In this document: positions 11,116-60,638 of the stretch, in pieces
Layout: every line of letters begins with the position of its first letter
How positions within the stretch are numbered: the stretch's first letter is position 1
DNA from: a virus
Length of the DNA: 64,000 nucleotides
IMG/VR virus record: IMGVR_UViG_3300020183_000053
Location: 1-64,000 of that record
Strand: one strand, 5' to 3'
Position numbers and translations under genes: made by a program
The notes under the pieces: model-generated
What the model was told of the DNA's origin: nothing
Seen by the model: the letters and a program-made list of their open reading frames with translations, nothing else
Databases searched by the model: none

Positions 11116-12057
11116 TTATGGGTGGTGCGTCTGCACAATGCGCTGCAGCACGGTAGGGTCAGCGGCCCACTGCGCCATCATTGGCAGCACGTGGTGCCCC
11201 ATGCCCCAGTCTGAGACATACAGGGTGCGGAGGGTAGGGTTCCATTCGCTTAGAGCGGTAGCCACAGCCATCAGCCCAGCCCGCAGGAGCTGACCCCACT
11301 GCGGGTGACCGTTGCGGCCCACCACGAAGGCGTTCGCCAGCACGCTCACGTCTACGCCCAGGCGCTGCAGGTGCTCGGCCTGCACACCTGTCAGCTCGCT
11401 CAGCGGCACGTTGCGCAGCTTTCCGTCCCTATAGATGGGGAGCGTTCTGAAACGTGTACCTGACGCAAAGCTGGTCGCGTCTACGCTGTCCCACGTGTAG
11501 CCGCGCACCAGCTTTTCGGCGTTGATGCCGAACCCGTGTGTGCGCAGACCCAGGCGGCAGCACGCTGGCATCACCGCAGCCAGCCACCTGTCCGCGTCAG
11601 CGTCGGTGTAGCCGTGCAGCTTGCGCAGCTGTGACGTGATCCCGCCGATGGCGATGCGTTGCGCACCGATGGCTGCGTACCGCTCCACCCAGGCGGGGTC
11701 TGTTCCGAGGTGAATAGTGGGCATGGCGTTCTCTACGCCCGCTTCAACCATGCTGCGATGGTTCGCATAGGTGACTGCGGGGTTTCCCACCACGTCAAGG
11801 CTGGCACACCAGTCGGCGCACCTCCACTTCTCACCTGCGCGCAGGAAAGACGTGTAGGCGAGCAGAGACACGGGCTGACCAGTGGTGGCCACGCTGAAGG
11901 CACCACTGTCAAAAACAAGCGGCACACCGTCCGTCGCCGCTGTGCGCGCCTGGGTCCACAGCTTTGGGTTCTGGCGAATGGCGGCATAGCTCACCAGCCA
12001 CCCTACCCGCAGCGTATGGACGCCTGTGCGGTCGCTTGGAGTGTGAATAGTGATCAC
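11116..12057 (-). CDS. dpdA: DpdA-type 7-deazaguanine DNA transglycosylase
   Basis: 313 residues from GTG 12057 (GTGA overlap with queC). Phage DpdA proteins are TGT-related enzymes that exchange guanine in DNA for preQ0-type bases. Family hallmarks seen in order: FDSGAFSVA (catalytic-type Asp near residue 55), CADWCASLDVVGN, PTIHLGTDPAWVERY, RIAIGGITSQL, LGLRTHGFGIN, then YTWDSVDATSFASGTRF with the second key Asp. The length fits phage DpdA rather than the longer bacterial Dpd enzyme. It follows the complete preQ0 operon directly, which strongly supports the call. Confidence 0.9.
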   Translation of the reverse strand: MITIHTPSDRTGVHTLRVGWLVSYAAIRQNPKLWTQARTAATDGVPLVFDSGAFSVATTGQPVSLLAYTSFLRAGEKWRCADWCASLDVVGNPAVTYANHRSMVEAGVENAMPTIHLGTDPAWVERYAAIGAQRIAIGGITSQLRKLHGYTDADADRWLAAVMPACCRLGLRTHGFGINAEKLVRGYTWDSVDATSFASGTRFRTLPIYRDGKLRNVPLSELTGVQAEHLQRLGVDVSVLANAFVVGRNGHPQWGQLLRAGLMAVATALSEWNPTLRTLYVSDWGMGHHVLPMMAQWAADPTVLQRIVQTHHP

Positions 12058-12770
12058 GGACACTGCAGCAGTGGGTCGCGCACCCCGGCCTGCGCGAAGC
12101 CACGAGCGCGCAGGAGGCAGGCATGGCACTGACCACAGGGCGGCGTCTGCCCGGCGTAGCACGTGTGAGACACCGCCAGGGCGTCCATACAGCCCTGCAG
12201 CGTTGTCGCCAGCCGCACCGAGGCGGCCTTGTCCAGCCGCATCAGTGGCGTCAGCACAGGCAGCCAGTGGTCCCGGCCGACCACCGCCTGGGCGATGGCT
12301 TCTTCTGCCGCATCCACGAATGTCCGCCTGCAATCGAAGTATCCCCCGAAGTCTTCCTCGCACACGCCAGTCACCAGCGCGTCCGCCTTCACCGCCGCTG
12401 CCCGATTGGCAGCCAGTGTCAGGAATAGCAGGTTCCGTCCCGGTACGAACGTCGGCTCTACACCACCGGGCAGGTCGTCAGCATTCGCGTACAGACCCAG
12501 CGGCGCGTCACTCACCAGCGGGCTGGTGCCGACCAGCACGCGGCCCATCTGCACCTCCTCGTGCCGCAGCACCACGCGAGGATAGTGCGCCTGCGCCACC
12601 TGCAGCACCGCCCTGGCAGCACGCAGCTCCGCGTCATGGCGCTGGCCGTACCACACCGACAGTGCGTGCACCTCACTGGCGCCAGCGTCCAGCGCCCAGA
12701 ACAGGCACGTGGTGCTATCCTGGCCACCCGACAGCAGCAGCACCACCCGTTTCCCAGTTAGGTCCATCAT
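12054..12770 (-). CDS. queC: 7-cyano-7-deazaguanine synthase QueC
   Basis: 238 residues. Converts 7-carboxy-7-deazaguanine (CDG) to preQ0 using ATP and ammonia. The PP-loop SGGQDSTTCLFWAL is at residues 14-27, the YGQRHDAEL motif near 42, VPGRNLLFL near 110, and the four-Cys zinc site CYAGQTPPCGQCHAC near the C-terminus. Standard length. ATG 12770 is coupled to the queD stop (TAATG). The stop overlaps the dpdA start. Confidence 0.95.
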   Translation of the reverse strand: MMDLTGKRVVLLLSGGQDSTTCLFWALDAGASEVHALSVWYGQRHDAELRAARAVLQVAQAHYPRVVLRHEEVQMGRVLVGTSPLVSDAPLGLYANADDLPGGVEPTFVPGRNLLFLTLAANRAAAVKADALVTGVCEEDFGGYFDCRRTFVDAAEEAIAQAVVGRDHWLPVLTPLMRLDKAASVRLATTLQGCMDALAVSHTCYAGQTPPCGQCHACLLRARGFAQAGVRDPLLQCP

Positions 12771-13204
12771 TATTCCCCCTTACGCCAGTCTGCCCAGCAG
12801 TTCGGCGTTTCATAGACCCGCACGTGTGTCACCGCGATGCCGTACCCGTGCAGCAGCTGCCCAGCTGTGTGTCCGACCAGCCGGGCTATATTCTCGGCGG
12901 TGGGTTCGCCGTATTCGCGCGGCATCGCATAGGTTTTCTGGCCACGTTCCACCAGAAAGGCCCCCACAGGGTCATCGGGGTGGTGGGCATACCCGTGGTC
13001 CAGCGCCTCGTCCAGCCACGTGCCGACCACCTGCTTCACCACCGAAAAGTCAACCACGCGGCCCACCGCGTCCAGCGCAGGTGCTGCGCACGTGACCTCG
13101 ATACCGTAGCGGTGCCCGTGCACGTGTGCGCACTTGCTTTCATGGCGCATCACACGGTGGCCCACGTCAATCCCGAAAATGCGGGTGCAGGTCGTACCCA
13201 TCAC
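12770..13204 (-). CDS. queD: 6-carboxy-tetrahydropterin synthase QueD
   Basis: 144 residues. Converts dihydroneopterin triphosphate to 6-carboxy-tetrahydropterin. Zinc ligands are visible as H16 (VGHRVMRH) and the H29/H31 pair in CAHVHGHRY; the Cys before them is the catalytic one. DFSVVKQVV, LDHGYAH and EPTAENIARLV are typical of the family, as is the C-terminal RVYETPNCWADW with its Glu. Start at 13204 overlaps the folE stop. Confidence 0.95.
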   Translation of the reverse strand: MMGTTCTRIFGIDVGHRVMRHESKCAHVHGHRYGIEVTCAAPALDAVGRVVDFSVVKQVVGTWLDEALDHGYAHHPDDPVGAFLVERGQKTYAMPREYGEPTAENIARLVGHTAGQLLHGYGIAVTHVRVYETPNCWADWRKGE

Positions 13205-13797
13205 GCCCCCCTGGGCAGCGGTTCACACAGGTGCCAGAACTCGGCGCGCACCTCGTGCTGCCGGAAGGCGCCCAGCAGCACCTCGGTGGTCATGGTGCCA
13301 GTCTTGCGCACACCACGGCAGGCCATGCAGTGGTGCACGGCGCGCACACGCACACCCACCCCACGCGCGTGCAGGTGCGCAGCCAGCGCGTCGGCCACCT
13401 GCTGCGTCAGCCGTTCCTGCACCTGCAGGCGCCGTGCATACAGGTCCACCAGTCGGGCCAGCTTGGAAACACCCACCACCAGACCAGTGGTCCCTGGCAG
13501 GTAGCCCACGTCGGCCACACCAGTGAACGGCAGCATATGGTGCTCGCAGACGCTGTGAAACGGAATGTCGGCCAGCACGATCATCTGGTCGTAGCCACCC
13601 ACTTCCGAGAACCCAGCGTCCCCGGTGCTCGTACTGAGCACGTCGCCCGGCTGCAGGTTCATTCCCTCCAGCATCTCGCTCCACGCCTTGGCCACCCGTT
13701 CGGGCGTGCCACGCAGCCCCTCCCGGTGCACGTCCTCACCCACTGCGGTCAGCAGTGCCCGCACCGCGTCGGCGGCAGCTTGTTTGTCACTTGTCAT
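13201..13797 (-). CDS. folE: GTP cyclohydrolase I
   Basis: 198 residues. Makes dihydroneopterin triphosphate from GTP, first step to preQ0 and folate. Conserved FolE motifs: REGLRGTPERVAKAW, IPFHSVCEHHMLPFTG with Cys and His zinc ligands, GLSK-equivalent VVGVSKLARLVD, YARRLQVQERLTQQVA and HHCMACRGVRKTGT. Complete, standard length. Overlaps both queE and queD by 4 bases, so the four enzymes are translated as one unit. Confidence 0.95.
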   Translation of the reverse strand: MTSDKQAAADAVRALLTAVGEDVHREGLRGTPERVAKAWSEMLEGMNLQPGDVLSTSTGDAGFSEVGGYDQMIVLADIPFHSVCEHHMLPFTGVADVGYLPGTTGLVVGVSKLARLVDLYARRLQVQERLTQQVADALAAHLHARGVGVRVRAVHHCMACRGVRKTGTMTTEVLLGAFRQHEVRAEFWHLCEPLPRGA

Positions 13798-14456
13798 GAT
13801 AGCTCCAGCAGCTTGTGAACCTGCGCCGAAACACGCCAGCCCAGGCGTGCAGCCAGCGCCAGCGCGGGCTGCACCGCGCCGGGTCCGGTCCCGATGTCAA
13901 GGGGCTGGACGAAGCGGTGCACGAACGACCACTCACCCATGCGGCGCAGCTCGTCCTCGGACCACTGCGGGTCCACCACCTTCAGGTCAGTGCCTTGCCT
14001 GACCACCACGTGCTGCAGCGTATCAGCGCCGGGCTGGCGCAGTGCTTTCGGGGATACCGTTACGTGCTGAACAGCCTGCAGGGCATCAGCACGCACGGTC
14101 CCGTTCGTTTCCACAGCCACCCACACGCGCGCAGCACGCAGGCCCTCAATCAGTGCTTCGCCCGCCAGCGTGCGCAGCTGCAGGCACGGCTCGCCGCCGG
14201 ATACCACCACGAACGGGCGGCGCCACCCGTCGCACAGGCGCAGCACAGTGTCCACCACCTCCTGCGGCTCGTAGCGCGTGCCACGGGCGAAGTCGGTGTC
14301 ACACCACGCGGCGCACGCACCAGCACCTGCATCCCGAAGGTGCGGCAGCCCGCTCCACAGGTTGCAGCCAGCGAGGCGCACGAACACTGCAGGAACTCCT
14401 GCCATGCTGCCCTCACCCTGCATCGTGGCGAACACCTCCCGAACGTACACAGTCAT
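13794..14456 (-). CDS. queE: CDG synthase QueE (radical SAM)
   Basis: 220 residues. Rearranges 6-carboxy-tetrahydropterin to 7-carboxy-7-deazaguanine. EVFATMQGEGSMAGVPAVFV is the canonical start and VSGGEPCLQ the SAM-binding GGE region, with VAVETNGT and DLKVVDPQW further on. The cluster motif is CNLWSG, then CAAWCDTDF, giving Cys-X16-Cys-X3-Cys. Standard radical SAM enzymes have CX3CX2C and some QueE have CX14CX2C, so this spacing is atypical. ATG 14456 overlaps the upstream ParB-like stop. Confidence 0.92.
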   Translation of the reverse strand: MTVYVREVFATMQGEGSMAGVPAVFVRLAGCNLWSGLPHLRDAGAGACAAWCDTDFARGTRYEPQEVVDTVLRLCDGWRRPFVVVSGGEPCLQLRTLAGEALIEGLRAARVWVAVETNGTVRADALQAVQHVTVSPKALRQPGADTLQHVVVRQGTDLKVVDPQWSEDELRRMGEWSFVHRFVQPLDIGTGPGAVQPALALAARLGWRVSAQVHKLLELS

Positions 14457-15175
14457 GCGCCCGCCTGTGCGAGCACCGCCCGCTGCACCGTGTCGGTGAT
14501 ATTGTCGGTGCCGTACTGGTCAGCCAGCTTGCGCACGGCCATCTGGAACGGTTCCATCGTCTCGTCGTTGAGGAACAGCTGCACCACGCGCACCGCGCTG
14601 GTGGGCATCGGTGCCGGCGCCGCGCCGGGCGGCAGCACGCTCCCAGCAGCGGCGCCTGCGCCAGTGGGTGCGGCAGCAGGCACAGCTCCACCGGACGGAG
14701 CCAGCGCCGCAGCCTGCGGGTCAGCGACGGGTGCCTCGGCAACGTATGCCGCCACCAGCGCGTCCAGCTCTGCGGTAGAGAACCCGAGGTCGTCCACGTT
14801 GAAGGACGTGTCCAGTGCCGACAGGTCCGCAAGGTGCCGCGCCAGCACAGCCTCGTCCCAGCCCGCCAGCTCCCCGGTGCGGTTCAGCGCGATGGATAGC
14901 TTGCGGGCCTCTGTGTCGCTCACGTCCAGCAGCGCCACGCGGGCAGCCGTCCAGCCCAGGCTGCGCATGGCCTCGGCGCGCCCGTTCCCACCGATCACCA
15001 TCATCGTGGCCTTCTGCACCAGCAGCGGCTCCACCTGCCCGTGGTCGCGCAGGCTGGCGGCGATGGCCGCGAGGTTCCGCTTGTCATGTGTGCGCGGATT
15101 GGCAGGGTCAGGCCGCAGTTCTGCCAGCGGCACGGTGGTCAGGTTCAGCTCGGCGGTGGGCATCGGTTGCTCCAT
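14453..15175 (-). CDS. ParB/Srx-domain protein
   Basis: 240 residues. Residues 8-75 form a ParB N-terminal-like domain: LRPDPANPRTHDKRNLAAIA, HGQVEPLLVQ, then GNGRAEAMRSLGW in place of the usual GERRxRA box. DVSDTEARKLSIALNRTGEL follows, a stretch commonly seen in phage ParB-like proteins beside DNA methylases. A Pro/Ala linker (about residues 145-185) leads to a C-terminal helical domain (VQLFLNDETMEPFQMAVRKL). It sits directly upstream of queE in the same overlapping string, so a role in guiding or licensing DNA modification is plausible, though partition or regulation are alternatives. Confidence 0.8.
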   Translation of the reverse strand: MEQPMPTAELNLTTVPLAELRPDPANPRTHDKRNLAAIAASLRDHGQVEPLLVQKATMMVIGGNGRAEAMRSLGWTAARVALLDVSDTEARKLSIALNRTGELAGWDEAVLARHLADLSALDTSFNVDDLGFSTAELDALVAAYVAEAPVADPQAAALAPSGGAVPAAAPTGAGAAAGSVLPPGAAPAPMPTSAVRVVQLFLNDETMEPFQMAVRKLADQYGTDNITDTVQRAVLAQAGA

Positions 15176-15462
15176 CAGTGGGTGAGGCTGGCCACCAGCG
15201 CGCCCACAGCCGCGCCAGTGGCGCAGGCCAGCGACGCCAGCAGGTACAGGTGGCGGGGGACCAGCAGGGCGGCCTGCGGGCGAGGCGGTGCCAGCACCAG
15301 CAGCAGCTCGGTGCGGTCACCTCTGGCTGCTGGCAGGCTGGCCACCACGTGCCAGCCCTCGGCCAGCAGGGACGCCAGCGCCGGGCTGCGCACGCTGGCC
15401 TCTGGATCGTCCATCGGCAGTGCCAGCACAGTGGCGCGCTCGGGCACAGCCGGGCCGCTCAC
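15175..15462 (-). CDS. Small protein with C-terminal membrane helix
   Basis: 95 residues. GTG 15462 overlaps the upstream stop (GTGA); the stop overlaps the ParB-like ATG. A soluble N-terminal part (LASLLAEGWHVVASLPAARG) precedes a hydrophobic segment LYLLASLACATGAAVGALVA near the C-terminus, a probable tail anchor. Unknown function; carried between the modification genes. Confidence 0.6.
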   Translation of the reverse strand: MSGPAVPERATVLALPMDDPEASVRSPALASLLAEGWHVVASLPAARGDRTELLLVLAPPRPQAALLVPRHLYLLASLACATGAAVGALVASLTH

Positions 15463-15734
15463 AGCGGCACCGTGGCGGGCTGGTGGCTGGGCACACAGTC
15501 CTGCCCAGCCACCAGCCCGCGCACCACGCCGTGCACCTGCACCCACACGATGCGCTCGTTTCGGTGCGCAGCGGCGTGCTGCGCCTCCATCCTCTGGTAT
15601 TCCTTGAAGTCGCGGGGTGCCGCCTGGGCCAGCGTGGTGCCTTGCACCACGTCGCCAGCCTCCAGCACCACCTGCTCCCTCGTGCCACCGTTGAGCATGA
15701 ACGTCACCCTCCGCTGCACCCTGTAGGTCGTCAC
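15459..15734 (-). CDS. Small hypothetical protein, 91 aa
   Basis: GTG 15734, 22 bases after the upstream stop, with a weak ribosome site. Reads MTTYRVQRRVTFMLNGGTRE, then VLEAGDVVQGTTLAQAAPRD and a His-rich middle. Probably a small beta-rich domain. Unknown function. Confidence 0.6.
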   Translation of the reverse strand: MTTYRVQRRVTFMLNGGTREQVVLEAGDVVQGTTLAQAAPRDFKEYQRMEAQHAAAHRNERIVWVQVHGVVRGLVAGQDCVPSHQPATVPL

Positions 15735-15756
15735 CGCTGCCCCGTTATCACACCGC

Positions 15757-16632
15757 TCACGCCTCTGCCGTTACGCCAGAGAGCTGCGCGATGGCGTGCT
15801 CCAGGGCTGTGTCCCACACTGCGGGAACCAGCTCCCAGCTGTAGTCGGGCAGCGCCTGCAGCTGCTGCTGGGCATACAGGGTGCCGATGGCGGTGATCAC
15901 GTCGTGCCAGCTTGCGCGCACGCCAGCATCTTCGCACCGCTCCACGTACTCCTGCACCAGCGCACCCAGGCTGTCGCCGGGCGGCGCAGTCACGTCCAGC
16001 ACGGTGGCGGGGCGCCCTGCGCCCAGGTCCAGCTCCACCACGGTGTCCAGGCACTCCACCCGCAGCGCGGTGCCGTCCTGGGCCACCACCACACCAGCCA
16101 CCACCTCCGCGCCCTGCTGCACCACCACCAGCCGCCCCACCAGCCCACCAGCCGCAGGGTGCGCACCTGCACCCACCGCCTGGGCCACCGACAGCCGGGC
16201 AGCGTGCTGGGTGCGCAGGCGCACCTGCAGCACCTCGTCCAGCTGGTACACCACGTCGGTGGCAGCACGCTCCAGCAGCCCGTGCACACGCACACGCACC
16301 ACCAGCACCGCCTGCGCTGCTGTCACGCTCACGGTGGCCTGCCGCACCTCGGCGTGGCCACGCGCAAGGTGGCGCCCGTCCTCGGCAGCCAGCTCCACCG
16401 CGCACAGGTCGAACCCGCCGCTGGTGCTGGCCTTGCCCCGCGCACCGTCGCCACCGCTGGCGAACGCACGCGCCGCACCGGGCACGTAGCTGTCCACCAG
16501 TGCAGCGGCCTGCTCGTCAGGCACGTCCAGCGACAGGTCGTAGTCCCACACGATGCCCGCACCATCTCGGCGGGGCGTGGCGCGTACCAGTCGCATCACG
16601 GCGCTGGTCGGCAGGTTGCGCAGGTCAAGCAT
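15757..16632 (-). CDS. Hypothetical protein, 291 aa, in modification operon
   Basis: ATG 16632 follows GGAGAGCTG. No recognised domain. The first 90 residues mix strands and helices (LRNLPTSAVMRLVRATPRR, IVWDYDLSLDVPDEQAAALV), the centre is beta-rich (ATVSVTAAQAVLVVRVRV, AAGGLVGRLVVVQQGAEVV), and the C-terminus is helical (SLGALVQEYVERCEDAG, HDVITAIGTLYAQQQLQAL). It lies between the VUT transporter and the ParB-like gene, so it is a candidate unknown component of the modification system. Confidence 0.7.
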   Translation of the reverse strand: MLDLRNLPTSAVMRLVRATPRRDGAGIVWDYDLSLDVPDEQAAALVDSYVPGAARAFASGGDGARGKASTSGGFDLCAVELAAEDGRHLARGHAEVRQATVSVTAAQAVLVVRVRVHGLLERAATDVVYQLDEVLQVRLRTQHAARLSVAQAVGAGAHPAAGGLVGRLVVVQQGAEVVAGVVVAQDGTALRVECLDTVVELDLGAGRPATVLDVTAPPGDSLGALVQEYVERCEDAGVRASWHDVITAIGTLYAQQQLQALPDYSWELVPAVWDTALEHAIAQLSGVTAEA

Positions 16633-16680
16633 CAGCTCTCCGCGCTTGTCATAGGGCCGAAGCGCCAGCGGCGCACAGGG

Positions 16681-17193
16681 TCAGCCGTTCGGGCTGCGTA
16701 GCAGGCGCACCAGCAGCAGCGACCACAGCAGCCCGCCGACCACCTTGGCGCTCGCCTGCGCGGCCACCAGCAGCGGCGGCGCATCCCCGAACGCTACAAG
16801 CTGAAACACCAGCGAGTCCACCGCCGCCCCTGCCACGTTACTGGCGTTCACCCGCAGCAGGCGCCCCTGCTGCCGCAGGCGGTGCAGCACCACGCTGTCG
16901 GCCACGCCAGCCACAAGGAACGCCGCCGCGCTGGCAGCCGCCACGCGGTCGGCCCGCTCCAGCACCAGCGCGGTCAGCAGCGATCCCGACAGCACCAGCG
17001 CGCCCAGGCGCAGCACCAGCTGCTGCCCGGTCCACCGCTCCTGCAGCACGTCCTTCACCGTCAGGTCAAGGGGAATGACCAGCCAGGACGACACCAGCGC
17101 CGCCGGTCGCCCCCACAGCACCACAGCCACGTTCGCGGCCACGATGCTGGCAAGGTAGGCGGCCACGAGGGGTCTGCTTTGCGGGCTGGTCAT
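16681..17193 (-). CDS. VUT/YhhQ-family queuosine-precursor transporter
   Basis: 170 residues with about five or six membrane segments (PLVAAYLASIVAANVAVVLW, ALVLSGSLLTALVL, SAAAFLVAGVADSVVLHRL and others). Family features include LVIPLDLTVKDVLQERWTG and ASNVAGAAVDSLVFQLVAFG, which match PF02592 (VUT, including YhhQ, a preQ0/preQ1 uptake protein). Expected in the host inner membrane. It precedes the preQ0 biosynthesis genes on the same strand, so both import and synthesis of the base are encoded. ATG 17193; weak ribosome site. Confidence 0.85.
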   Translation of the reverse strand: MTSPQSRPLVAAYLASIVAANVAVVLWGRPAALVSSWLVIPLDLTVKDVLQERWTGQQLVLRLGALVLSGSLLTALVLERADRVAAASAAAFLVAGVADSVVLHRLRQQGRLLRVNASNVAGAAVDSLVFQLVAFGDAPPLLVAAQASAKVVGGLLWSLLLVRLLRSPNG

Positions 17194-17320: not shown

Positions 17321-18049
17321 CTATGCCGCCCGCGCAGCCGCCACCCGTGCAGCCAGCACCACCCGCACGCTGCTGGCGTGCCACGTGCCGCCGCTGCGAG
17401 GCGGGTGCCCAGCCTCGGCCAGCAGCGCGCCCACACGGCGCAGGCTGTGGCCCTCGCCGTGCAGCTGCTGCGCCAGCACGATGGCAGCCTGCTCGGCGGG
17501 CACCGGGTGCAGCTGGCCCTCGGCGTCGGCCTGCCACCCATAGGGTGCGCGCCCGCCAGTGTAGGCGCCCTCGGCCTTCATGTGCGCCATCGCGGCGCTG
17601 GTGCGCTCGCCGATAGTCTCGCGCTCCCACTGCGCCACCGACATCAGCACGTTCAGCACCAGCCGCCCGCCTGCGGTGCGGGTGTCCACCTGCTCCTGCA
17701 CGCTCAGCAGCGCCGGGCCGTCCTTGCGCCCGAACCAGCCGTCCAGCAGCTCGCCCAGGTCGCGCACGCTGCGGGTGAGGCGGTCCAGCTTCGCCACCAG
17801 CAGGGCGTCGGCGGCGCCGCTGTCAAGCATGGCCAGCGCCGCCTGCAGCCCGTCCCGCTGCAGCGTCTTGGCGCTGGCGCCCGCGTCTACCACCACCTCC
17901 ACCAGCTCCACGTCGTACAGCTCGGCGTAGAGCTGCACCTTGGCGCGCTGGGCCTCCAGGCTCACGCCGTGGTCGGCTTGCTTATCGGTGCTCACGCGCA
18001 GGTACGCGACAGCGCGGGTGCGGGTGGTGGTGCTGGTGCTGCGGGCCAT
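17321..18049 (-). CDS. Small serine recombinase
   Basis: 242 residues, ATG 18049 (AGGAGGTTCAC). The resolvase/invertase catalytic domain spans residues 11-150: AVAYLRVSTDKQADHG with the nucleophilic Ser, then DAGASAKTLQRDGLQAAL, LLVAKLDRLTRSVRDLGEL and SVAQWERETIGERTSAAM. The rest (APYGWQADAEGQLHPV, GHSLRRVGALLAEAGHPP) is the start of a recombinase-type DNA-binding domain. Large serine integrases have about 450-550 residues, so this may be a short integrase, a resolvase or an invertase. N-terminus MARSTSTTTRTR belongs to the Thr-rich set. Behind promoter P6. Confidence 0.9.
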   Translation of the reverse strand: MARSTSTTTRTRAVAYLRVSTDKQADHGVSLEAQRAKVQLYAELYDVELVEVVVDAGASAKTLQRDGLQAALAMLDSGAADALLVAKLDRLTRSVRDLGELLDGWFGRKDGPALLSVQEQVDTRTAGGRLVLNVLMSVAQWERETIGERTSAAMAHMKAEGAYTGGRAPYGWQADAEGQLHPVPAEQAAIVLAQQLHGEGHSLRRVGALLAEAGHPPRSGGTWHASSVRVVLAARVAAARAA

Positions 18050-26437: not shown

Positions 26438-27907
26438 ATGGCGACAGCCGCACCCTACCACGCCACCAGCGTGGTGTCGAGCCTTGCCCTGCCCGCCGAC
26501 GCGCTGGCTACCGCTGCGCGCCGCCTGGAGGCTGGGCTGCTGGCTGCGGCAGCTGGCTGCGGTGCGCTGGGTGTGGGGCTGCGTGCCGCCCTGTACGGCT
26601 GGGCGGTGCAGCTGCAGCACGCACAGCGGCTCCCCTGCGGGCGGTGGTACGTCGAGAGCTGCCCCAGCTACGTCGCCACCGTGCAAGGCTGCACGCGCTG
26701 GGCGGCCACGCTGGCGTGGCGCTGTGCCCAGCAGCTGGTGGGCTGGTCAGAGGTCGCCACCGACCACGCGCGGGCGCTGGGCGCCCAGCTGCGCCGGGTG
26801 CGATGGGGCACCCGGTACGGGCGGCACCTGCTGCTGGACGGGTGGCAGCTGGCTGGGCTGCGCGCCGCAGCTGGTGTGCCCGCAGGCGCCGCTGGCGAAC
26901 TGCTGGTGGATGCTGACGAGGCGCTGGCGCGCCTGCGCGGTGGCGCCCGCACCGCCACAGTGCGGTGCCCACTGCACGATGACCGCACGCCGTCGCTGGT
27001 GCTGTGGGCCAGCGGCGGCGCGCAGTGCATGGCCTGCCAGCAGCAGGATGGCACCGCGCCCCGCTGGGCGTGGCTGGCGGCAGGCCAGCAGGTGCGCCTG
27101 CTGCCTGCTACCCGCACCAGCACGGCACAGCAGCGCCACCAGCACAATAAAAGCCCCCAGGTAGCCCAGGCGGCCACCGTGCAGCCGGTCGGGGTGCCTG
27201 TGGGTGGGTGTGTGGTGCGCGGTGCTGTGCACAGCGGGCACACGGCTGCACTGCTGCGGGCAGCCACCACACACTGCGGGCGGGTGGCCACGTGGCGCAC
27301 AGCGGGCAGCCGGGCGGCTGGTGGTGTGCTGGCTGCGCTGCAGCGGGCCGACGCCAGCAGCTGCACGCCAGCGGCCACACAGCGCGCCCACGACGCGGCG
27401 CTGTTCGGGGCTGGGCTGCCCGGTCGGGCGGTGCTGCCCGACAGGCTGCTCAGCGTGTCCACGATGGGGCGCGCACCGGGTGGCGGCTGGGCCACGCCGC
27501 AGGTGCCACGGTGCCAGCAGTGGGTGCTGCTGGACATTGATGACGTGCAGCTGCCTGCTGCGTGCGGTGGGCTGGGCCACGCCATCGCGGCAGTGGTGGC
27601 GGCAGACGGCGAGGCCAGCGGGCGCTGCGCTGTGGTGCGCACCGGCCCCGCTGGGCTGCAGGTGTGGGTGCAGCTGGCGCACGCGCGCCACAGCGCCACC
27701 ACGTGGCACCAGCACCCTGCGGTGCGCAGGTGGTACACCACGCTCGGGGCGCGGGTGTTGGCGGCTGCACGCGCGCACGGCGCGCAGGGTGGCCACGTAG
27801 ACACCAGCGCCTGCGCTGCGGGGCGGTTCGGGCGGCGCCCAGGCTGGCGGCTGGTGGGCGGCGCACCCTACCGGGCGCACCTGCTGCACGTGGTCAGCGG
27901 TGCGTGA
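26438..27907 (+). CDS. Zinc-finger, AEP/PrimPol-like primase
   Basis: 489 residues on the plus strand. Residues 1-165 are helical and unrecognised. A CHC2-like zinc motif follows: RCPLHDDRTPSLVLW, then AQCMACQQQDG. The C-terminal half holds VLLDIDDVQL (Asp-x-Asp, motif I), RTGPAGLQVWVQL (like the Gly/His motif II of archaeo-eukaryotic primases, without His) and DTSACAAGRFGRRPGWRL (like motif III). I infer a primase or priming polymerase; the missing His and weak spacing lower confidence. ATG 26438; only a weak GGA upstream. Transcribed against all neighbours. Confidence 0.55.
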   Translation: MATAAPYHATSVVSSLALPADALATAARRLEAGLLAAAAGCGALGVGLRAALYGWAVQLQHAQRLPCGRWYVESCPSYVATVQGCTRWAATLAWRCAQQLVGWSEVATDHARALGAQLRRVRWGTRYGRHLLLDGWQLAGLRAAAGVPAGAAGELLVDADEALARLRGGARTATVRCPLHDDRTPSLVLWASGGAQCMACQQQDGTAPRWAWLAAGQQVRLLPATRTSTAQQRHQHNKSPQVAQAATVQPVGVPVGGCVVRGAVHSGHTAALLRAATTHCGRVATWRTAGSRAAGGVLAALQRADASSCTPAATQRAHDAALFGAGLPGRAVLPDRLLSVSTMGRAPGGGWATPQVPRCQQWVLLDIDDVQLPAACGGLGHAIAAVVAADGEASGRCAVVRTGPAGLQVWVQLAHARHSATTWHQHPAVRRWYTTLGARVLAAARAHGAQGGHVDTSACAAGRFGRRPGWRLVGGAPYRAHLLHVVSGA

Positions 27908-54454: not shown

Positions 54455-54993
54455 CACGGTCCTCCAGCGCCGAAGCGAATACCCGCCTGCGTGCGCAGCT
54501 CTGCACCCATCACCAGCACGAACGCGCGCAGCATCTGCGGGCGCACGTGTGGGGCGCTGGCTGTCAGCCACAGCACGTCGCGCGGCAGCATCTTTCGCGT
54601 GCCTTCCACCACCCAGGACACGTGAGGCGGCACGTTAGCCCACCATCCGAGCAGGTAGTACGGGCGGGCGCCGCCACCAGCGCCACCAGCGCGGAACTTG
54701 ACTTCGCCCTGCAGCGCGGCGGCCATGCGCCCGGTGCGCGTGTGCACCACGTGCGTTTCGCCAGCGTGCACTCTGATAGTGCCGTGCCGCTTGGCATACG
54801 GGTGATCCATCCGGCGCAGCTGCTGCAGTGTGTGGTCGGTGCGGGTAAGGTTGGCGTAGACCGCGCCCTTCGCCACCTCGCCCGCCTTGCCCATCGCCCG
54901 GCCAGCGGCATCGCGCAGCACCCGGTCGGACAGCTGGCGCAGGTTGATCACCGTCGCCTCAATGCCGACCACCCGTGTGCGGTTCGCTGCCAT
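54454..54993 (-). CDS. HK97 gp10-like head-tail protein
   Basis: 179 residues. VINLRQLSDRVLRDAAGRAM, GKAGEVAKGAVYANLTRTDH, then RTGRMAAALQGEVKF and a GWWANVPPHVSWVVEGTRKM stretch: like the gp10/neck-type minor proteins whose middle contains a YxxFxEFGTxxM signature (here WVVEGTRKM). Ends with the tail terminator neighbour. Role: tail completion or connector. Confidence 0.7.
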   Translation of the reverse strand: MAANRTRVVGIEATVINLRQLSDRVLRDAAGRAMGKAGEVAKGAVYANLTRTDHTLQQLRRMDHPYAKRHGTIRVHAGETHVVHTRTGRMAAALQGEVKFRAGGAGGGARPYYLLGWWANVPPHVSWVVEGTRKMLPRDVLWLTASAPHVRPQMLRAFVLVMGAELRTQAGIRFGAGGP

Positions 54994-57818
54994 CAGCCCA
55001 CCTCGCAGCCACTATCCGCCAGCGGGGCCGCAGGGTCAAGCGCATCCAGCTGCAGCTCCAGCAGCGCGTCCAGGTCAACCTCTGCGGGTACCGCAGAACG
55101 CCCCGCGCCCAGCTTCGGCTGGTCAGGTGCGTGCTCGGCCAGCCACTGGTGCATCTGCTGCACCTGCCCGTGCAGCGTGTGGCTGGGTGCCAGCCGCCGC
55201 TGCGCTTCACCCAGCAGCAGCCGCCCGATGCGCAGGTGGTACAGCGCGGCCTCGCGGAATGGCAGGTACCCGTTCCCCGCGCAGCGCATCGCTGCCTCAT
55301 AGCACGCCCACTGTTCCTCGCGGCGGTTATCGTTGCCGTATTGCAGGCCCAGGCTCACCCATGCGCCTGGGCTGGTGGGGTCGTCCTGCAGCTGCTTCAC
55401 GAGCAGGCGCGTGTACCGTGCCAGCTTGGCCTGCATGGCCTCGGGGCCGCCGCTCAGGCCACGGTGGTCCACGGTGAACGGGGCATAGCGCACCTGCGGG
55501 TGGATGCCGCGCTCACCCAGGGCGGCCATTCCCTTTTCCAGTGTCTCGTGCACCCTGTAGCTGAACCGCAGGATGCCACCTGCCAGCCGGAACAGCCGGG
55601 TGTTTTCGGACCAGTTCCAGGCGCCGTCTGCCCGCCAGTTACGGAACCGGAACAGCCACGCCCAGCTGTCGGTGACCTCGACCATGCGGCGCAGCGCAAT
55701 CGTGGCCAGGAACGTGCTCTCATACTGCTCGTCGGGGTCCATCACAAGGCACCACGCGCAGCCCAGCTCGCGCAGCCGGTCCACGCCCGCGTTCCGCGCT
55801 GTGCCCAGGTCGTCATTCAGCGGGTGGTACACCCACTCCGCACCGTACCGGGCGGCCACGTACTGCACGTCGGCGCTGGGCGCGGTGCCCTCGGGGCCGG
55901 TCCACACCAGCACCACGTGGTCAGCCAGCGCATACAGGCTGTCAAGGTGGCGGTGCAGGTCGTACAGCTGCTCGCCATCGTGCCACAGCATGGTGAACCC
56001 CAGCCCGTTGTCAGGCTGCCAGGGTGCCAGCTGCATCCCCTCCTCGCGCACGATGTGGTCGTACCCGCCCGCGCCACTGGTGCGTCCCTGGGTGAGCACA
56101 CTATCGGGGTTCTTGTCTTTGCCACGGTAGAACGCCACTTTCCGCAGCCGGTCAGCGTGGCGCAGGTATCCATAGTGACGGAACCGCAGAGCGGCCACGC
56201 GCTTGGCGTTCTCCCCCGCATCGGGCACGTTCCCGCAGTGCAGCCCGATGTCGTTGCCCGCCAGCACGTTCTGCACGCTGGGGTGGGTCACACGCCACAG
56301 GCGGAACCCGCGCATCGAGCTGCGATAGTCGGGGCCGCACCACGGCACGTCCACGCGGCACAGGCGCGGGCTGTCCCAGTGGTTCGCCCAGCCCACGTCA
56401 TAGTGGGTCACCAGCGGGTCGGGGTTGCGCATCCACTTCTGCAGCAGGGCGCGGTCCACCCGTTCCTCCACCACCTCGTCGTGGTCAACGCTCAGCAGCC
56501 AGTCGGGCGCAAGCTGCAGCGCCAGCCGGATGGCGGCGTTGCGCTCGTCGCGCTCGTTCCACTCGCCCACCCAGCTGCGCACCAGCACAGGCACGTCACG
56601 CTGGCTGCAGGCACTGGCCAGCCGCTCGGCCCACACCTGCAGCACGGCGGCCTGCTCGTCTGGCGTGGCGTCACGGCAGGCCTCCAGCAGCGCCTGCTCT
56701 GCAGGCTCGAACAAGCCAGCACGCCACTCGGGTGTGGTGGTAACCTCCGCAGGGTTGCCGGTGAGCAGGATAGCGATGCCGTCCACCAGCTGGCTGGTGC
56801 GCCCGATGCTGGCGCGCAGCATCGCAAGGTCGTTCGGCACGTGCAGCTTCACGCGCCACAGCGCCACCAGCCGCTGCTCGCGGTCGGTGTAGCCCTCCCA
56901 GGTGCGCAGGTACGTCGGCAGGTTCGCCAGCCCGCGCTGCGCATCGGGGAACACAGCGTCCAGCGTCTGGTGGCCCAGGTGGTGAACGTAGCAGTTAGTC
57001 GCGATGGCCATACGCCAGCCCAGCAGCTGCACACGCGCGGCGATGTCGTTGTCATCGTACCCGCCGATACCGTACTGCGGGCGGATCAGACACGGCTGGC
57101 CCTCGTGCTGCTCCAGCAGCTGCAGCAGGCACTCGCGGCCATACAGCACGCACAGCCCTGACAGGAAGCTGGCGGCCATCGGTGTCCACCCGTTCTGCTC
57201 GGCGTAGTCAGCAGCGAAACGGTCCAGCATGGCGTCTGCATCTGCCGTGAAGGCGCTGCCTGTCGCCATCTTTACGTCGGGCGCACGCACCTGCTGCATA
57301 CCCGCCACCACGTTTGACACGGGGCCGACCATGCCGATGCGCCCGTAGCCACCCACAGGGTGCGCGGGCGCCTGCTGACCGTAGCCCGCCACCTCACCCT
57401 GCAGCCGAACGTCGGGCGTGTGCAGCGCACCGTGCATCCGGTGCAGCCAGCCGGGCGTCACGCGCACGTCGTCGTTCATGATCACCACAGCGGGCGGCAG
57501 CCCACCGTGCTCCAGCGCCACCTGCACCCCTGCGTTCACAGCGCCAGCCCAGCCCGCAGGCCCAGGCATCTGCACCCACTGCAGCAGCACCTGCTGGCGC
57601 TCGCCGCTCGCCGCCTGGACCATCGCCGCCACCTGCTGCTGCAGCTGGTCGATACTGCCGTCTGCCAGCCCCTGCGGCAGCGGGTTCACGACCAGCATCA
57701 GCCGCCAGCGGTCCACCTGTGTGCAGGTGAGCAGGCGCTGCACGCACGGCAGCACCAGATCGGCGCGCCCCATCGTGGGCACAATGACGAGGCAGTGGTG
57801 TTCGTTGTCGTGGTGCAT
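54993..57818 (-). CDS. Multi-domain glycosyltransferase, 941 aa
   Basis: ATG 57818 (GGGGAG, 9 bases). The N-terminal GT-A domain (GT2-like): CLVIVPTMGRADLVLPCVQR, WAGAVNAGVQVALEHGG, VVIMNDDVRVTPGWLHRMH with the metal-binding Asp-Asp. A middle region has NAAIRLALQLAPDWLLSVDH-DEVVE (second donor-site-like Asp-His-Asp) and VNWAN-like motifs. The third GT2-like domain: LADHVVLVWTG, HPLNDDLGTARNAGVDRLRE, WCLVMDPDEQYE. A C-terminal TPR-like helical part ends the protein. Acts probably on a virion or host glycan; embedded among tail genes and near rmlB and a methyltransferase. Confidence 0.82.
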   Translation of the reverse strand: MHHDNEHHCLVIVPTMGRADLVLPCVQRLLTCTQVDRWRLMLVVNPLPQGLADGSIDQLQQQVAAMVQAASGERQQVLLQWVQMPGPAGWAGAVNAGVQVALEHGGLPPAVVIMNDDVRVTPGWLHRMHGALHTPDVRLQGEVAGYGQQAPAHPVGGYGRIGMVGPVSNVVAGMQQVRAPDVKMATGSAFTADADAMLDRFAADYAEQNGWTPMAASFLSGLCVLYGRECLLQLLEQHEGQPCLIRPQYGIGGYDDNDIAARVQLLGWRMAIATNCYVHHLGHQTLDAVFPDAQRGLANLPTYLRTWEGYTDREQRLVALWRVKLHVPNDLAMLRASIGRTSQLVDGIAILLTGNPAEVTTTPEWRAGLFEPAEQALLEACRDATPDEQAAVLQVWAERLASACSQRDVPVLVRSWVGEWNERDERNAAIRLALQLAPDWLLSVDHDEVVEERVDRALLQKWMRNPDPLVTHYDVGWANHWDSPRLCRVDVPWCGPDYRSSMRGFRLWRVTHPSVQNVLAGNDIGLHCGNVPDAGENAKRVAALRFRHYGYLRHADRLRKVAFYRGKDKNPDSVLTQGRTSGAGGYDHIVREEGMQLAPWQPDNGLGFTMLWHDGEQLYDLHRHLDSLYALADHVVLVWTGPEGTAPSADVQYVAARYGAEWVYHPLNDDLGTARNAGVDRLRELGCAWCLVMDPDEQYESTFLATIALRRMVEVTDSWAWLFRFRNWRADGAWNWSENTRLFRLAGGILRFSYRVHETLEKGMAALGERGIHPQVRYAPFTVDHRGLSGGPEAMQAKLARYTRLLVKQLQDDPTSPGAWVSLGLQYGNDNRREEQWACYEAAMRCAGNGYLPFREAALYHLRIGRLLLGEAQRRLAPSHTLHGQVQQMHQWLAEHAPDQPKLGAGRSAVPAEVDLDALLELQLDALDPAAPLADSGCEVG

Positions 57819-57860
57819 CTTCTGCGCTCCCCGCCTCTCGGGCGTGTGTGTGGGGTGCGC

Positions 57861-57869
57861 AGTGTATCG
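57861..57869 (-). promoter_or_regulatory. Late-type -10 element upstream of glycosyltransferase
   Basis: Minus strand CGATACACT (-10-like TACACT), preceded by GTAGCCC and followed by GCGC. In the 78-base gap before the start at 57818. Confidence 0.4.
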
Positions 57870-57896
57870 CGGGCGGGCTACCTTGGGGAGCCAGCG

Positions 57897-58526
57897 TCAG
57901 GGCGCGTACCTGTCAGCCCGCAGCTGCCAGTGGTGTGGGCGCACGCCGAAGCCCACACGCACCTCACGCACGCCACCCACCAGCCACTGGTCGCCAGTGG
58001 CCTGCTCCACGATGTAGTCCTGCGGGCTGGGCGCCCAGGTTTCCTCATAGTCCAGCAGGAACGTGGCGGCGTCCATCGCCTGCACGCCCTGGTTCTGCGC
58101 TGGTGCGCGCATGAACCCAGACCACCCCAGCACGGCGAGCTTCGCCTCGGCCACTGTCACCAGCATGAACTGCGGCGTGCCGTCCGCACTCACCGCCTGC
58201 ACCGCCACTGTCGGCACGGTGGCCTCGTTCGCCAGCCCGGTGGTGGCCACGCTGGTCAGTGTGGCGAAACGCTTGGTCGTCACCTGGGTTCCGTTTGCCG
58301 CGAAGGTTAGCGTTTCGCTCTGTGCCGCACCACCGGGTGCCGTGCCCACCAGCTCCACGGTGCCGCTGCCTGTGGTGCCGCCAGCCACAGTCACCTGCAG
58401 GAACGCCTGCCCCAGCAGGGCGCGGGTCGGCGTCAGCGTAGCTGCTGCGGTGGTGGCCACCAGCGCGAACGCCGTCTTTCGGCGCACGTCCACCACCGTG
58501 TTCGCGCTGCTGGTGACCGTGCTCAT
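57897..58526 (-). CDS. Structural protein, 209 aa
   Basis: ATG 58526 overlaps the methyltransferase stop (ATGA). Beta-rich: AFALVATTAAATLTPTRALL, FLQVTVAGGTTGSGTVELVG, QSETLTFAANGTQVTTKRFA, TGLANEATVPTVAVQAVSAD. Ig- or sandwich-like repeats of Thr/Val strands as in tail or capsid decoration proteins. A possible substrate for the neighbouring glycosyltransferase; that is inference. Confidence 0.65.
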   Translation of the reverse strand: MSTVTSSANTVVDVRRKTAFALVATTAAATLTPTRALLGQAFLQVTVAGGTTGSGTVELVGTAPGGAAQSETLTFAANGTQVTTKRFATLTSVATTGLANEATVPTVAVQAVSADGTPQFMLVTVAEAKLAVLGWSGFMRAPAQNQGVQAMDAATFLLDYEETWAPSPQDYIVEQATGDQWLVGGVREVRVGFGVRPHHWQLRADRYAP

Positions 58527-59032
58527 GCCTTGGTGCCCCACACGAACGTGTCCAGCCCATTCCGCTCCAGCCGCCCCTGCAGGCTGGCCCACCCACAGGC
58601 GGCGCGCAGCACCTGCAGCATTTCGTCGGGGTCGCGCCCCCCGTAGTAGCCGGGCGTCGGGCTGTCCTCCAGGTGGTGCTCGGGCCGCAGCCTGCTGGCA
58701 CAGCTGAACGCCAGCAGGCCACCGGGCCGCAGGTGCTGCGCCGCTGCCTGCAGTGTCTGCTGCCAGAACGGGTCATGCTCCAGCATCTCGGTGCTCACCA
58801 CCACGTCCACCGGGCCACCCACAGGTGGGTGCTCGTGGGCGATGCCCACCACGTCCACGCCAGCGCCAGCGTATGCGTCGATACCCAGGTAGTACGACGG
58901 CGCCGGGAACAGGCGGCGCGGGCTGCCGTTGATGTCGCGGCTGCCATACTCCAGCACTCGCGCACCAGCGGCGAACAGGTGGGGATGGTTCAGGCGCAGC
59001 CCGCTCAGCCAGTCCATGACGGTGGCGTGCAT
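58523..59032 (-). CDS. Class I SAM-dependent methyltransferase
   Basis: 169 residues. Rossmann-type: RVLEYGSRDINGSPRRLF (motif I variant), YYLGIDAYAGAGVDVVGIA (Asp for the SAM ribose), GPVDVVVSTEMLEHDPFWQQ (motif IV; small-molecule type), LRPGGLLAFSCAS. This pattern resembles methyltransferases acting on sugars or small molecules rather than DNA ones (no NPPY). Overlaps both neighbours; in a cluster with rmlB and the glycosyltransferase, so methylation of the transferred sugar is likely. Confidence 0.82.
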   Translation of the reverse strand: MHATVMDWLSGLRLNHPHLFAAGARVLEYGSRDINGSPRRLFPAPSYYLGIDAYAGAGVDVVGIAHEHPPVGGPVDVVVSTEMLEHDPFWQQTLQAAAQHLRPGGLLAFSCASRLRPEHHLEDSPTPGYYGGRDPDEMLQVLRAACGWASLQGRLERNGLDTFVWGTKA

Positions 59033-59652
59033 CAGCTCTCCAGGCTGGGCGGCGCCAGCGTTTCCGTGGTGGGGTCTGCCGCTGGCGCGTCGGCCTGCGC
59101 CTGCGTGTCGTGCGCTGTGGGCGCCTGTGCGGCCTGTGGGGGCGCCTCGGGCTGCGGGGCGGCGTCGGTGCGGACGGTGCGCTTGCGGGCCGCCTGCGGG
59201 GCGCTGGCGGGCGCCTGCAGCGTGTGCTGCGGCTCCCACGCACCGGCTGCCAGTGCCTGCACCTGCACCTGCGCTGCATCAGTCACCACCACCCGCAGCG
59301 CCGCATCGGCCACTGTCAGCGCGTGCACCTCGTGGTGCGTGGCCAGTACCTGCAGGGTGGCGGCCAGCTCGTCCACGGGGCCAGCCACCAGCACCACCAC
59401 GGCAGCGCGCAGGTCCGCGCTGCCCAGCTGCGCGCCCAGGTAGGCAGGGTCACCCGCCAGCAGGGTGGCACGCCCCACGTGCGCGCGCCAGCCGCCCGCT
59501 GCAGCCACCGCACGGCCACGCCCCACAGGCGGCAGGGTTGCGCCCGGTGGCTGGTCCAGCAGCAGCACGTGGCGCGCATAGTGCAGCCCAGGCTGGGCGC
59601 TGGGCAGCAGGTCCATCGTCGGCAGCACGCCCACCACGTCGTTCTGGCTCAC
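59032..59652 (-). CDS. Hypothetical protein, Ala/Pro-rich, 206 aa
   Basis: GTG 59652 overlaps the rmlB stop. N-terminal 120 residues form a mixed domain (YARHVLLLDQPPGATLPPV, GDPAYLGAQLGSADLRAAVV, DELAATLQVLATHHEVHAL), followed by a long Ala/Gln/Pro tail. Unknown; possibly tied to the sugar genes by translational coupling. Confidence 0.6.
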   Translation of the reverse strand: MSQNDVVGVLPTMDLLPSAQPGLHYARHVLLLDQPPGATLPPVGRGRAVAAAGGWRAHVGRATLLAGDPAYLGAQLGSADLRAAVVVLVAGPVDELAATLQVLATHHEVHALTVADAALRVVVTDAAQVQVQALAAGAWEPQHTLQAPASAPQAARKRTVRTDAAPQPEAPPQAAQAPTAHDTQAQADAPAADPTTETLAPPSLES

Positions 59653-60638
59653 GATGCCTCCATTTCAGTGAACGGCGCCAGCTCAACGCTGGAGCCATGG
59701 TATTCGCTCAGCAGGGCGCGCAGGTTTTCGGGCGCCAGCAGGTCGGCGGTGGCTTCCCAGCCCAGGGCGCGCAGGCGGCTGCCGTCCACGCGGTAGGCTG
59801 CATCCTGCCCAGGCCGGTCAGGGCTGGTGACCACAGCCTCGTCCTCGTGCACGCCCAGCTGGGAGGCCAGCGCCAGCACCACCTCGCGCACGCTTGCCAC
59901 ACGTGGTCCGGCGATATTGAAGGTGGCACCAGTGTTCACCGCGCCCGCAGCCAGCCACGCGGCCACGTTGCACAGCGCGTCCGCGAACTCGTGCACCGCC
60001 ACCCACTGTCGCAGCTGGGTGCCGCCACCGTGCAGTGGCACAGGGCGGCCCGCCTGCAGCAGCGCGCAGGCAATCGGCAGCAGCTTCTCGCCCAGCTGTC
60101 CCGCCCCCCATGCGTTGCACCCGCGCGTGATGGCGTACTGCAGCCCGGCGCTGGTGCCCATCGCGCGCACCGCCAGCTCCCCGGCTGCCTTGCCTGCGCT
60201 GTAGGGGCTGCTCGGGCGCAGCACGCTCCACTCTGGATAGGGGCCACTCAACGCAGGGCCATACACCTCGTCGGTGCTGCAGTAGACCAGCGGCACACCA
60301 GCCGACGCGCACGCAGCGGCCACCACCTGGGTGCCGTAGCCGTTGACCAGCATAGCCTCGCCCGGCTGCTGCAGGCTGCGGTCCACGTGCGACTGCGCCG
60401 CAAGGTGCAGCACTACGTCGGGGCGCGCGCCTGCCAGTGCCACCCGCACGTCGTCGGGCGAGCACACGTCACCCAGCCACAGCTGGTCGCCCAGCGCGCT
60501 CTCCACAGCGCCCCACCCGGTGGCGGCACGGGTGCGCGCGTCCAGCACGGTGACACTGCGCGCGCCGTGCGCCTGCGCCAGCTGGCGCACCACGTGCTGC
60601 CCGATGAACCCTGCACCACCTGTGACCAGCGTGCGCAT
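59649..60638 (-). CDS. rmlB: RmlB-like NAD-dependent dehydratase/epimerase
   Basis: 329 residues. SDR fold: LVTGGAGFIGQHVVRQLAQ (NAD site), LHLAAQSHVDRSLQQP, VYCSTDEVYGPAL (the Thr-Asp-Glu catalytic set of dTDP-glucose 4,6-dehydratase), SSPYSAGKAAGELAVRAM (Tyr-x3-Lys), TRGCNAWGAGQLGEKLLPI, and GRPVPLHGGGTQLRQWVAVH. Forms dTDP-4-keto-6-deoxyglucose. rmlC and rmlD are far away in the early region; no rmlA is visible. ATG 60638 is coupled to the previous stop. Confidence 0.88.
   Translation of the reverse strand: MRTLVTGGAGFIGQHVVRQLAQAHGARSVTVLDARTRAATGWGAVESALGDQLWLGDVCSPDDVRVALAGARPDVVLHLAAQSHVDRSLQQPGEAMLVNGYGTQVVAAACASAGVPLVYCSTDEVYGPALSGPYPEWSVLRPSSPYSAGKAAGELAVRAMGTSAGLQYAITRGCNAWGAGQLGEKLLPIACALLQAGRPVPLHGGGTQLRQWVAVHEFADALCNVAAWLAAGAVNTGATFNIAGPRVASVREVVLALASQLGVHEDEAVVTSPDRPGQDAAYRVDGSRLRALGWEATADLLAPENLRALLSEYHGSSVELAPFTEMEAS

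Follow-up and report, generated by a model that had tools for sequence, protein, structure and literature searches.

Genes of the modification operon

We analysed a window of 64,000 bases, positions 1-64,000 of the IMG/VR virus record IMGVR_UViG_3300020183_000053 (74,873 bases in all), in which a predicted operon for modifying DNA with 7-cyano-7-deazaguanine (preQ0) lies at 11116-17193 on the minus strand, the strand of nearly all predicted genes of the record. The transcription order is VUT, u291, u91, u123, ParB-like, QueE, FolE, QueD, QueC and DpdA-A (Table 1), with families assigned by profile searches of Pfam, PHROGs and NCBIfam. All genes named in an earlier sequence-only reading were detected at their positions, and the overlaps of 1-4 bases among the last six were found as described (gaps from ParB to DpdA-A of -4, -4, -4, -1 and -4); the order FolE-QueD-QueE-QueC-DpdA given there is corrected to QueE-FolE-QueD-QueC-DpdA.

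Table 1. Genes of the modification island, its recombinase neighbour and the second DpdA, with the profile matches found
Gene	Position	Strand	Assignment	Matches and remarks
DpdA-A	11116..12057	-	DNA guanine transglycosylase	phrog_887 1e-24; GTG start; 4-base overlap with QueC
QueC	12054..12770	-	preQ0 synthase without Gat domain	PF06508 3e-52; TIGR00364 above cut-off
QueD	12770..13204	-	6-carboxytetrahydropterin synthase	PF01242 3e-28; phrog_2389 1e-34
FolE	13201..13797	-	GTP cyclohydrolase I	PF01227 6e-62; TIGR00063 above cut-off
QueE	13794..14456	-	7-carboxy-7-deazaguanine synthase	TIGR04508 1e-40 (below its cut-off); phrog_2076 1e-30
ParB-like	14453..15163	-	ParB/sulfiredoxin-fold protein	PF02195 6e-7; phrog_620 5e-37; beside Que-DpdA or TET/JBP in relatives
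u123	15175..15546	-	No assigned function	Kept in relatives of either chemistry
u91	15459..15734	-	No assigned function	51-68% identity in L165-L169
u291	15757..16632	-	Marks the island	69-80% full-length identity in near relatives
VUT	16681..17193	-	VUT/YhhQ-type precursor transporter, predicted preQ0 importer	PF02592 3e-12; phrog_4899 2e-29
Serine recombinase	17321..18049	-	Borders the island	PF00239 3e-35
DpdA-B	71308-72120 of the record (outside the window)		Second intact DpdA	Found with DpdA-A as query

The same gene order, with genes overlapping or almost touching, was detected in the independent contig L168 (L-numbers denote the IMG/VR contigs and loci compared) at 78-83% identity to the window, and the Que and FolE genes of the two gave ratios of nonsynonymous to synonymous substitution rates (dN/dS) of 0.11-0.21. 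Chance is excluded as an explanation for the operon because the order is kept in an independent contig at this identity and dN/dS. Scanning for promoters and terminators yielded no useful result on the operon, and a capsid-based scan of cellular genomes found no host. The operon had been described as complete; it is not the whole system, since a second DpdA lies beyond the window. The u91 and u123 genes, each conserved in the near relatives, share 88 bases that are read in different frames.

Predicted synthesis and import of preQ0

FolE, QueD, QueE and QueC would convert GTP to preQ0, according to family knowledge and published phages, and together with DpdA they make up the gene set of group 2 of Hutinet et al. 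2019. Phages with this set, Mycobacterium phage Rosebush and Escherichia phage CAjan, carry 2'-deoxy-preQ0 (dPreQ0) at 28-32% of G (PMC6884629 Table 2), Rosebush DNA at 28% (PMC6884629). Arbiter (species Rosebushvirus rosebush) has the same set in the order ParB-DpdA-QueC-QueD-QueE-FolE. QueF and DpdC (PF03883) had no match in the 74,873-base record, which is possibly incomplete, and ArcS and a stand-alone amidotransferase were not searched. The absence of QueF and of a Gat-QueC, claimed from the letters of the window, agrees with these searches, and dPreQ0, the base named there, is still the best prediction for the window phage, given the preQ0 pathway, a DpdA-family enzyme and the Rosebush/CAjan precedent.

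It is unlikely that u291 or some other protein without assignment makes a further product the final base, such as 2'-deoxy-7-amido-7-deazaguanine (dADG), 2'-deoxyarchaeosine (dG+) or another derivative. Its possible makers include u291 and many other genes of the record without assignment, together with ArcS and separate amidotransferases outside the search, and phage 7-11 contains dADG without a known enzyme (PMC6884629). Against it, no QueF, DpdC or Gat-QueC fusion was detected, and u291 is kept by relatives without a deazaguanine cassette and is therefore not deazaguanine-specific.

The QueE cluster loop is CX16CX3C in both the window and L168 (12174-12833), where CX3CX2C or CX14CX2C is usual. 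It is CX14CX3C in L010 (3978-4841), and other widened spacings were observed in L047, L095, L096, L093 and L014.

VUT matched PF02592 with 47.8 bits, above the gathering threshold of 27.2 and below the narrower preQ0-transporter equivalog cut-offs. A DpdA-type gene lies within 300 bases in 41 of the 48 IMG/VR loci found by VUT, usually in the absence of synthesis genes, and this neighbourhood supports a putative role of VUT in supplying DpdA. Encoding both import and synthesis had been considered notable. Both are really encoded, and the combination is uncommon, not unique: IMG/VR has 73 DpdA loci in which at least three synthesis genes lie, and VUT was found in at least 6 of them, L069 included. 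FolE-QueD-QueE-QueC-DpdA phages and YhhQ homologs in some phages are already published (PMC6884629).

Two DpdA proteins

DpdA-A has no Pfam match, including no Pfam match to tRNA-guanine transglycosylase (TGT). Its D50 and D193 are invariant in the A6 alignment, and both DpdA proteins of the record keep these two aspartates, which are catalytic in the TGT superfamily. H174 of DpdA-A, located in the HGFG motif of both copies, aligns with His196 of the phage 9g protein, as in 9g-type DpdA. A DpdA2 group is without the histidine of 9g position 196 (PMC6884629). Both copies are without the TGT zinc site (CXCX2C...H), because no cysteine follows the second aspartate in either. The profile match, both aspartates and the DpdA-diagnostic histidine support assignment of the gene at 11116-12057 to the DpdA family, the identification that a profile search was to check.

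In the tree, DpdA-B pairs with L010 (support 99/95) and DpdA-A joins both (96/96), all outside the 9g-type clade (98/90), as are the ParB-linked actinophage DpdAs. In the phylogenetic comparison with tRNA-acting TGT, the two DpdAs of the record group with ParB-linked phage DpdAs; the branch of E. coli TGT is long and its position uncertain, so that the tree is weakly rooted. The AlphaFold2 model of DpdA-A (predicted local distance difference test, pLDDT, 81) is a TIM barrel with archaeal TGT 1iq8 among its structure matches. A role of the cassette in tRNA queuosine or in host metabolism, and not in phage DNA, is very improbable. DpdA is homologous to TGT and its substrate is assigned from sequence, which leaves some room for that alternative; the missing Pfam TGT match and zinc site argue against it, as do the PHROG and PDB sequence matches, which are phage DpdA-type proteins and the DNA-guanine transglycosylase 7ui4.

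DpdA-B is 41% identical to DpdA-A over about 160 residues and adjoins a methyltransferase-like (MTase-like) gene and the terminase; in L233, from another metagenome, the order DpdA-B, MTase-like gene, terminase large subunit (TerL) recurs, with 100% identity. More than one DpdA was detected in 3 of 80 IMG/VR DpdA records (L010 and L063 with two each, L047 with three) and in the Microbacterium phages Megan and Nicole72 (two each). Multiple DpdAs coincide with ParB (3/3 vs 3/77, p 2e-4), a link weakened by a ParB model trained on two such phages and by the Pfam ParB model, which matched one of the three. L047 (IMGVR_UViG_3300000651_000003) is a 97-kb phage contig with three DpdAs, VUT, ParB and synthesis genes.

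We consider it rather unlikely that only one DpdA works and that the other is a remnant or, by analogy with eukaryotic TGT and its two subunits, a partner without catalytic activity. The long branch of DpdA-A (1.6 vs 0.97) and the tandem arrangement of both L168 copies are consistent with such a division; both copies in the window phage have open frames and keep the two catalytic aspartates and the histidine, and two copies are retained in L168, L010, Megan and Nicole72.

Identity between the window and L168 is 78-83% for QueE, FolE, QueD and QueC, 78% for ParB, 80% for u291 and 64% for VUT, and only 41% and 43% for the two L168 DpdAs. Likewise, DpdA-B of L241 is 59% identical where TerL is 90%. 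Synonymous sites are close to saturation in DpdA pairs, which makes their dN/dS values unreliable. No close relative was retrieved when DpdA-A was the only query, because DpdA diverges fast. Such strong divergence would be expected if target choice changes, with DpdAs as exchangeable, fast-diverging target selectors; replacement of DpdA by transfer from elsewhere would give the same pattern.

Exchange of modification cassettes

Close relatives of the window phage were revealed with u291 as the IMG/VR probe, which found six contigs at 69-89% identity. Their primase (83-87%) and recombinase (86-95%) are highly similar to those of the window, as are the capsid (94%) and terminase (92%) of L167's phage, and the shared backbone has about 80-90% protein identity. 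L165-L169 keep u291 and u91, and u123 and ParB too where the contig extends; the short L170 stops within u291. We define slot 1 as the position directly after u291-u91-u123-ParB, and slot 2 as that immediately upstream of the terminase and its MTase-like neighbour.

Slot 1 is occupied differently among these relatives. L168 has the preQ0 set of QueE, FolE, QueD, QueC and two tandem DpdAs, with VUT. L167 and L169 have no VUT at this place and no Que genes, and no DpdA in either record. In L167, ParB is followed by Tet_JBP (8e-25), a P-loop kinase, a weak sulfotransferase-like match, an arginine-deiminase fold and an amino acid:DNA transferase (ADDT, 2e-17); in L169, by Tet_JBP (2e-25), a glycosyltransferase resembling the TET-associated glycosyltransferase (TAGT; 4e-4; phrog_25200 6e-21), an APH-family kinase and an HAD protein. 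Tet_JBP likewise follows ParB in L166, and none was found in the window phage (G000 in that search). No C5 cytosine methyltransferase (PF00145) to supply 5mC was detected in six records, some of them partial; a host or unrecognised enzyme may do so.

Slot 2, read in relatives found by terminase, contains DpdA-B in the window phage, L233 and L241; TAGT (3e-39) in L182, L234 and L236-L239; and nothing in L240 and L246. In L167's phage, TAGT (3e-39) and a small protein stand in place of DpdA-B. L246 and L169 come from the same metagenome and may be one phage, with the glycosyltransferase of L169 in slot 1. The chemistries of the two slots match in the window phage and in L167's phage. The MTase-like gene (DPPY motif; record 70451-71221, L003:6952-7722) adjoins slot 2 and is kept with DpdA, with TAGT or with an empty slot.

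The ParB proteins of the window and of L010, used as queries, retrieved 31 loci. In 14 loci with long ParB matches (31-68% GC), some of them phages already counted, TET/JBP directly follows ParB; Que/DpdA genes lie beside ParB in L010 kin and L168. L193-L196 (43-48% GC) contain a u291-u91-u123-ParB-TET module, with 50-53% identity for ParB and TET and 22-37% for the others, and u291 is 33-36% identical in GC-poor TET phages. In the phage collection searched u291 had no relative, and its predicted structure (pLDDT 67) matched no solved (PDB) fold, only uncharacterised phage proteins.

A ParB gene beside DpdA has been published as possible DpdB (PMC6392294), and the window has a ParB-superfamily protein in that place. 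A role of ParB as dedicated DpdB partner was considered and dropped, since the gene also stands next to TET/JBP cassettes, in L167 and L169 among others, and is not DpdA-specific. ParB and u291 are not specific to deazaguanine, judging by their neighbours, and the u291, u91, u123 and ParB genes, earlier taken as members of the deazaguanine operon, are not dedicated to it.

By exchanging a cassette, phages of this group apparently change their entire DNA-disguise chemistry, and a different base is predicted to be modified in relatives. The sequences show directly which genes are present, that there is a second DpdA, that catalytic residues are conserved, that cassettes replace one another at the same positions and that the DpdAs diverge. 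T4-like phages, with different modified bases in different groups, are a precedent at the subfamily level (PMC8056088); a limited literature search found no paper on deazaguanine/TET cassette exchange at one locus.

The island could instead be ordinary phage mosaicism, the DNA-modification reading being right and u291, u91, u123 and ParB being unrelated genes (replication, regulation) that flank a variable region. We are somewhat doubtful of this. Phages often have variable regions, u291 belongs to no known family or fold and the module adjoins replication genes; however, full-length ParB kin directly precede TET/JBP in 14 loci of widely different GC and stand with or beside Que/DpdA in others, and the genes in slot 2, at a distance of tens of kilobases, are of matching chemistry where both slots are readable.

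The serine recombinase that borders the island is one of the best-conserved proteins of the relatives (86-95% identity) and is possibly relevant to cassette exchange. Two other regions of the window were observed. The gene at 26438-27907, one of two plus-strand calls in the mostly minus-strand genome, has a CHC2-like zinc motif and is kept in relatives at 71-78% identity. A family 2 glycosyltransferase (941 aa), methyltransferase-like and epimerase genes lie amid structural genes at 54993-60638; they are also present in a TET-cassette relative and therefore do not track cassette type.

Proposed function

We suggest that the preQ0 operon, VUT and the two DpdAs probably give the phage a restriction-blocking dPreQ0, and that the operon is one occupant of an exchangeable modification island with two slots. 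VUT import would top up the preQ0 pool; DpdA-A, helped by DpdA-B beside the terminase, would swap guanine for preQ0 in phage DNA; the resulting dPreQ0 would block host restriction; and across the phage group the slots would be filled with either the preQ0/DpdA set or a TET/JBP-based hypermodification set. What the enzymes do, that dPreQ0 is the product, that it protects against restriction and that DpdA is a fast-diverging target selector we infer from these data. More tentatively, and as a possibility that we do not favour outright, u291-u91-u123-ParB would be a chemistry-neutral modification platform, with base chemistry swapped as cassettes in two coordinated slots and DpdA paralogs as target selectors.

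Several points weigh against this proposal. The exclusion of amidotransferases covers QueF and Gat-QueC, so that ArcS or a stand-alone glutamine amidotransferase may contribute; the record is an uncultured contig; the structure matches of DpdA are generic TIM barrels (template modelling score 0.49 to 1iq8), and the fold search alone does not identify a DpdA. Within the close group, slot 1 was read in no more than two lineages with a preQ0 cassette and two with a TET cassette, and the window phage and that of L167 are the only ones in which both slots were read.

Phage DNA modifications determine which restriction systems cut a phage. A single locus with occupants for which different target bases are predicted, in phages otherwise sharing about 80-90% protein sequence, is a natural experiment on the benefit of each chemistry, and also informs how phages change modification chemistry. 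ParBc genes are frequent in carboxymethylcytosine phage clusters, with no role assigned (PMC12783734), and the ParB shared here stands next to deazaguanine and TET cassettes; its retention across chemistries makes its role testable. With the synthesis genes conserved and DpdA strongly diverged, target choice by DpdA becomes testable as well.

Comparison with known systems

The gene set itself is a known phage type. The window phage resembles the dPreQ0 group 2 phages CAjan and Rosebush in having DpdA with FolE, QueD, QueE and QueC, with neither QueF nor Gat-QueC found among the amidotransferases, and adds two separated DpdAs, VUT, u291-u91-u123 and TET-cassette exchange in relatives. The VUT-DpdA pairs of PEAT2, Flyfo Tbat1_6 and ECO111 5-P share a VUT-family transporter and a DpdA-type enzyme, but have no synthesis genes nearby and a DpdA from a distant branch.

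The actinophage operons ParB-DpdA-QueC-QueD-QueE-FolE (Arbiter, Sour, Quesadilla, Finch, Megan) likewise have a ParB-like gene beside DpdA, and Megan and Nicole72 share the two DpdAs. These operons differ in gene order, no VUT or u291 was seen in them, and Megan has Gat-QueC, while the closest full-length kin of the window ParB mostly precede TET/JBP. Bacterial Dpd systems (DpdA, DpdB, DpdC) also combine a TGT-like DpdA with a ParB-superfamily partner; in contrast, no DpdC was found in the record and the window ParB shows no DpdA specificity. The phage TET/JBP hypermodification clusters of L167, L169 and L193-L196 have the same position and the same ParB/u291 module as the preQ0 operon, and differ in chemistry, which would be pyrimidine oxygenation and not guanine exchange.

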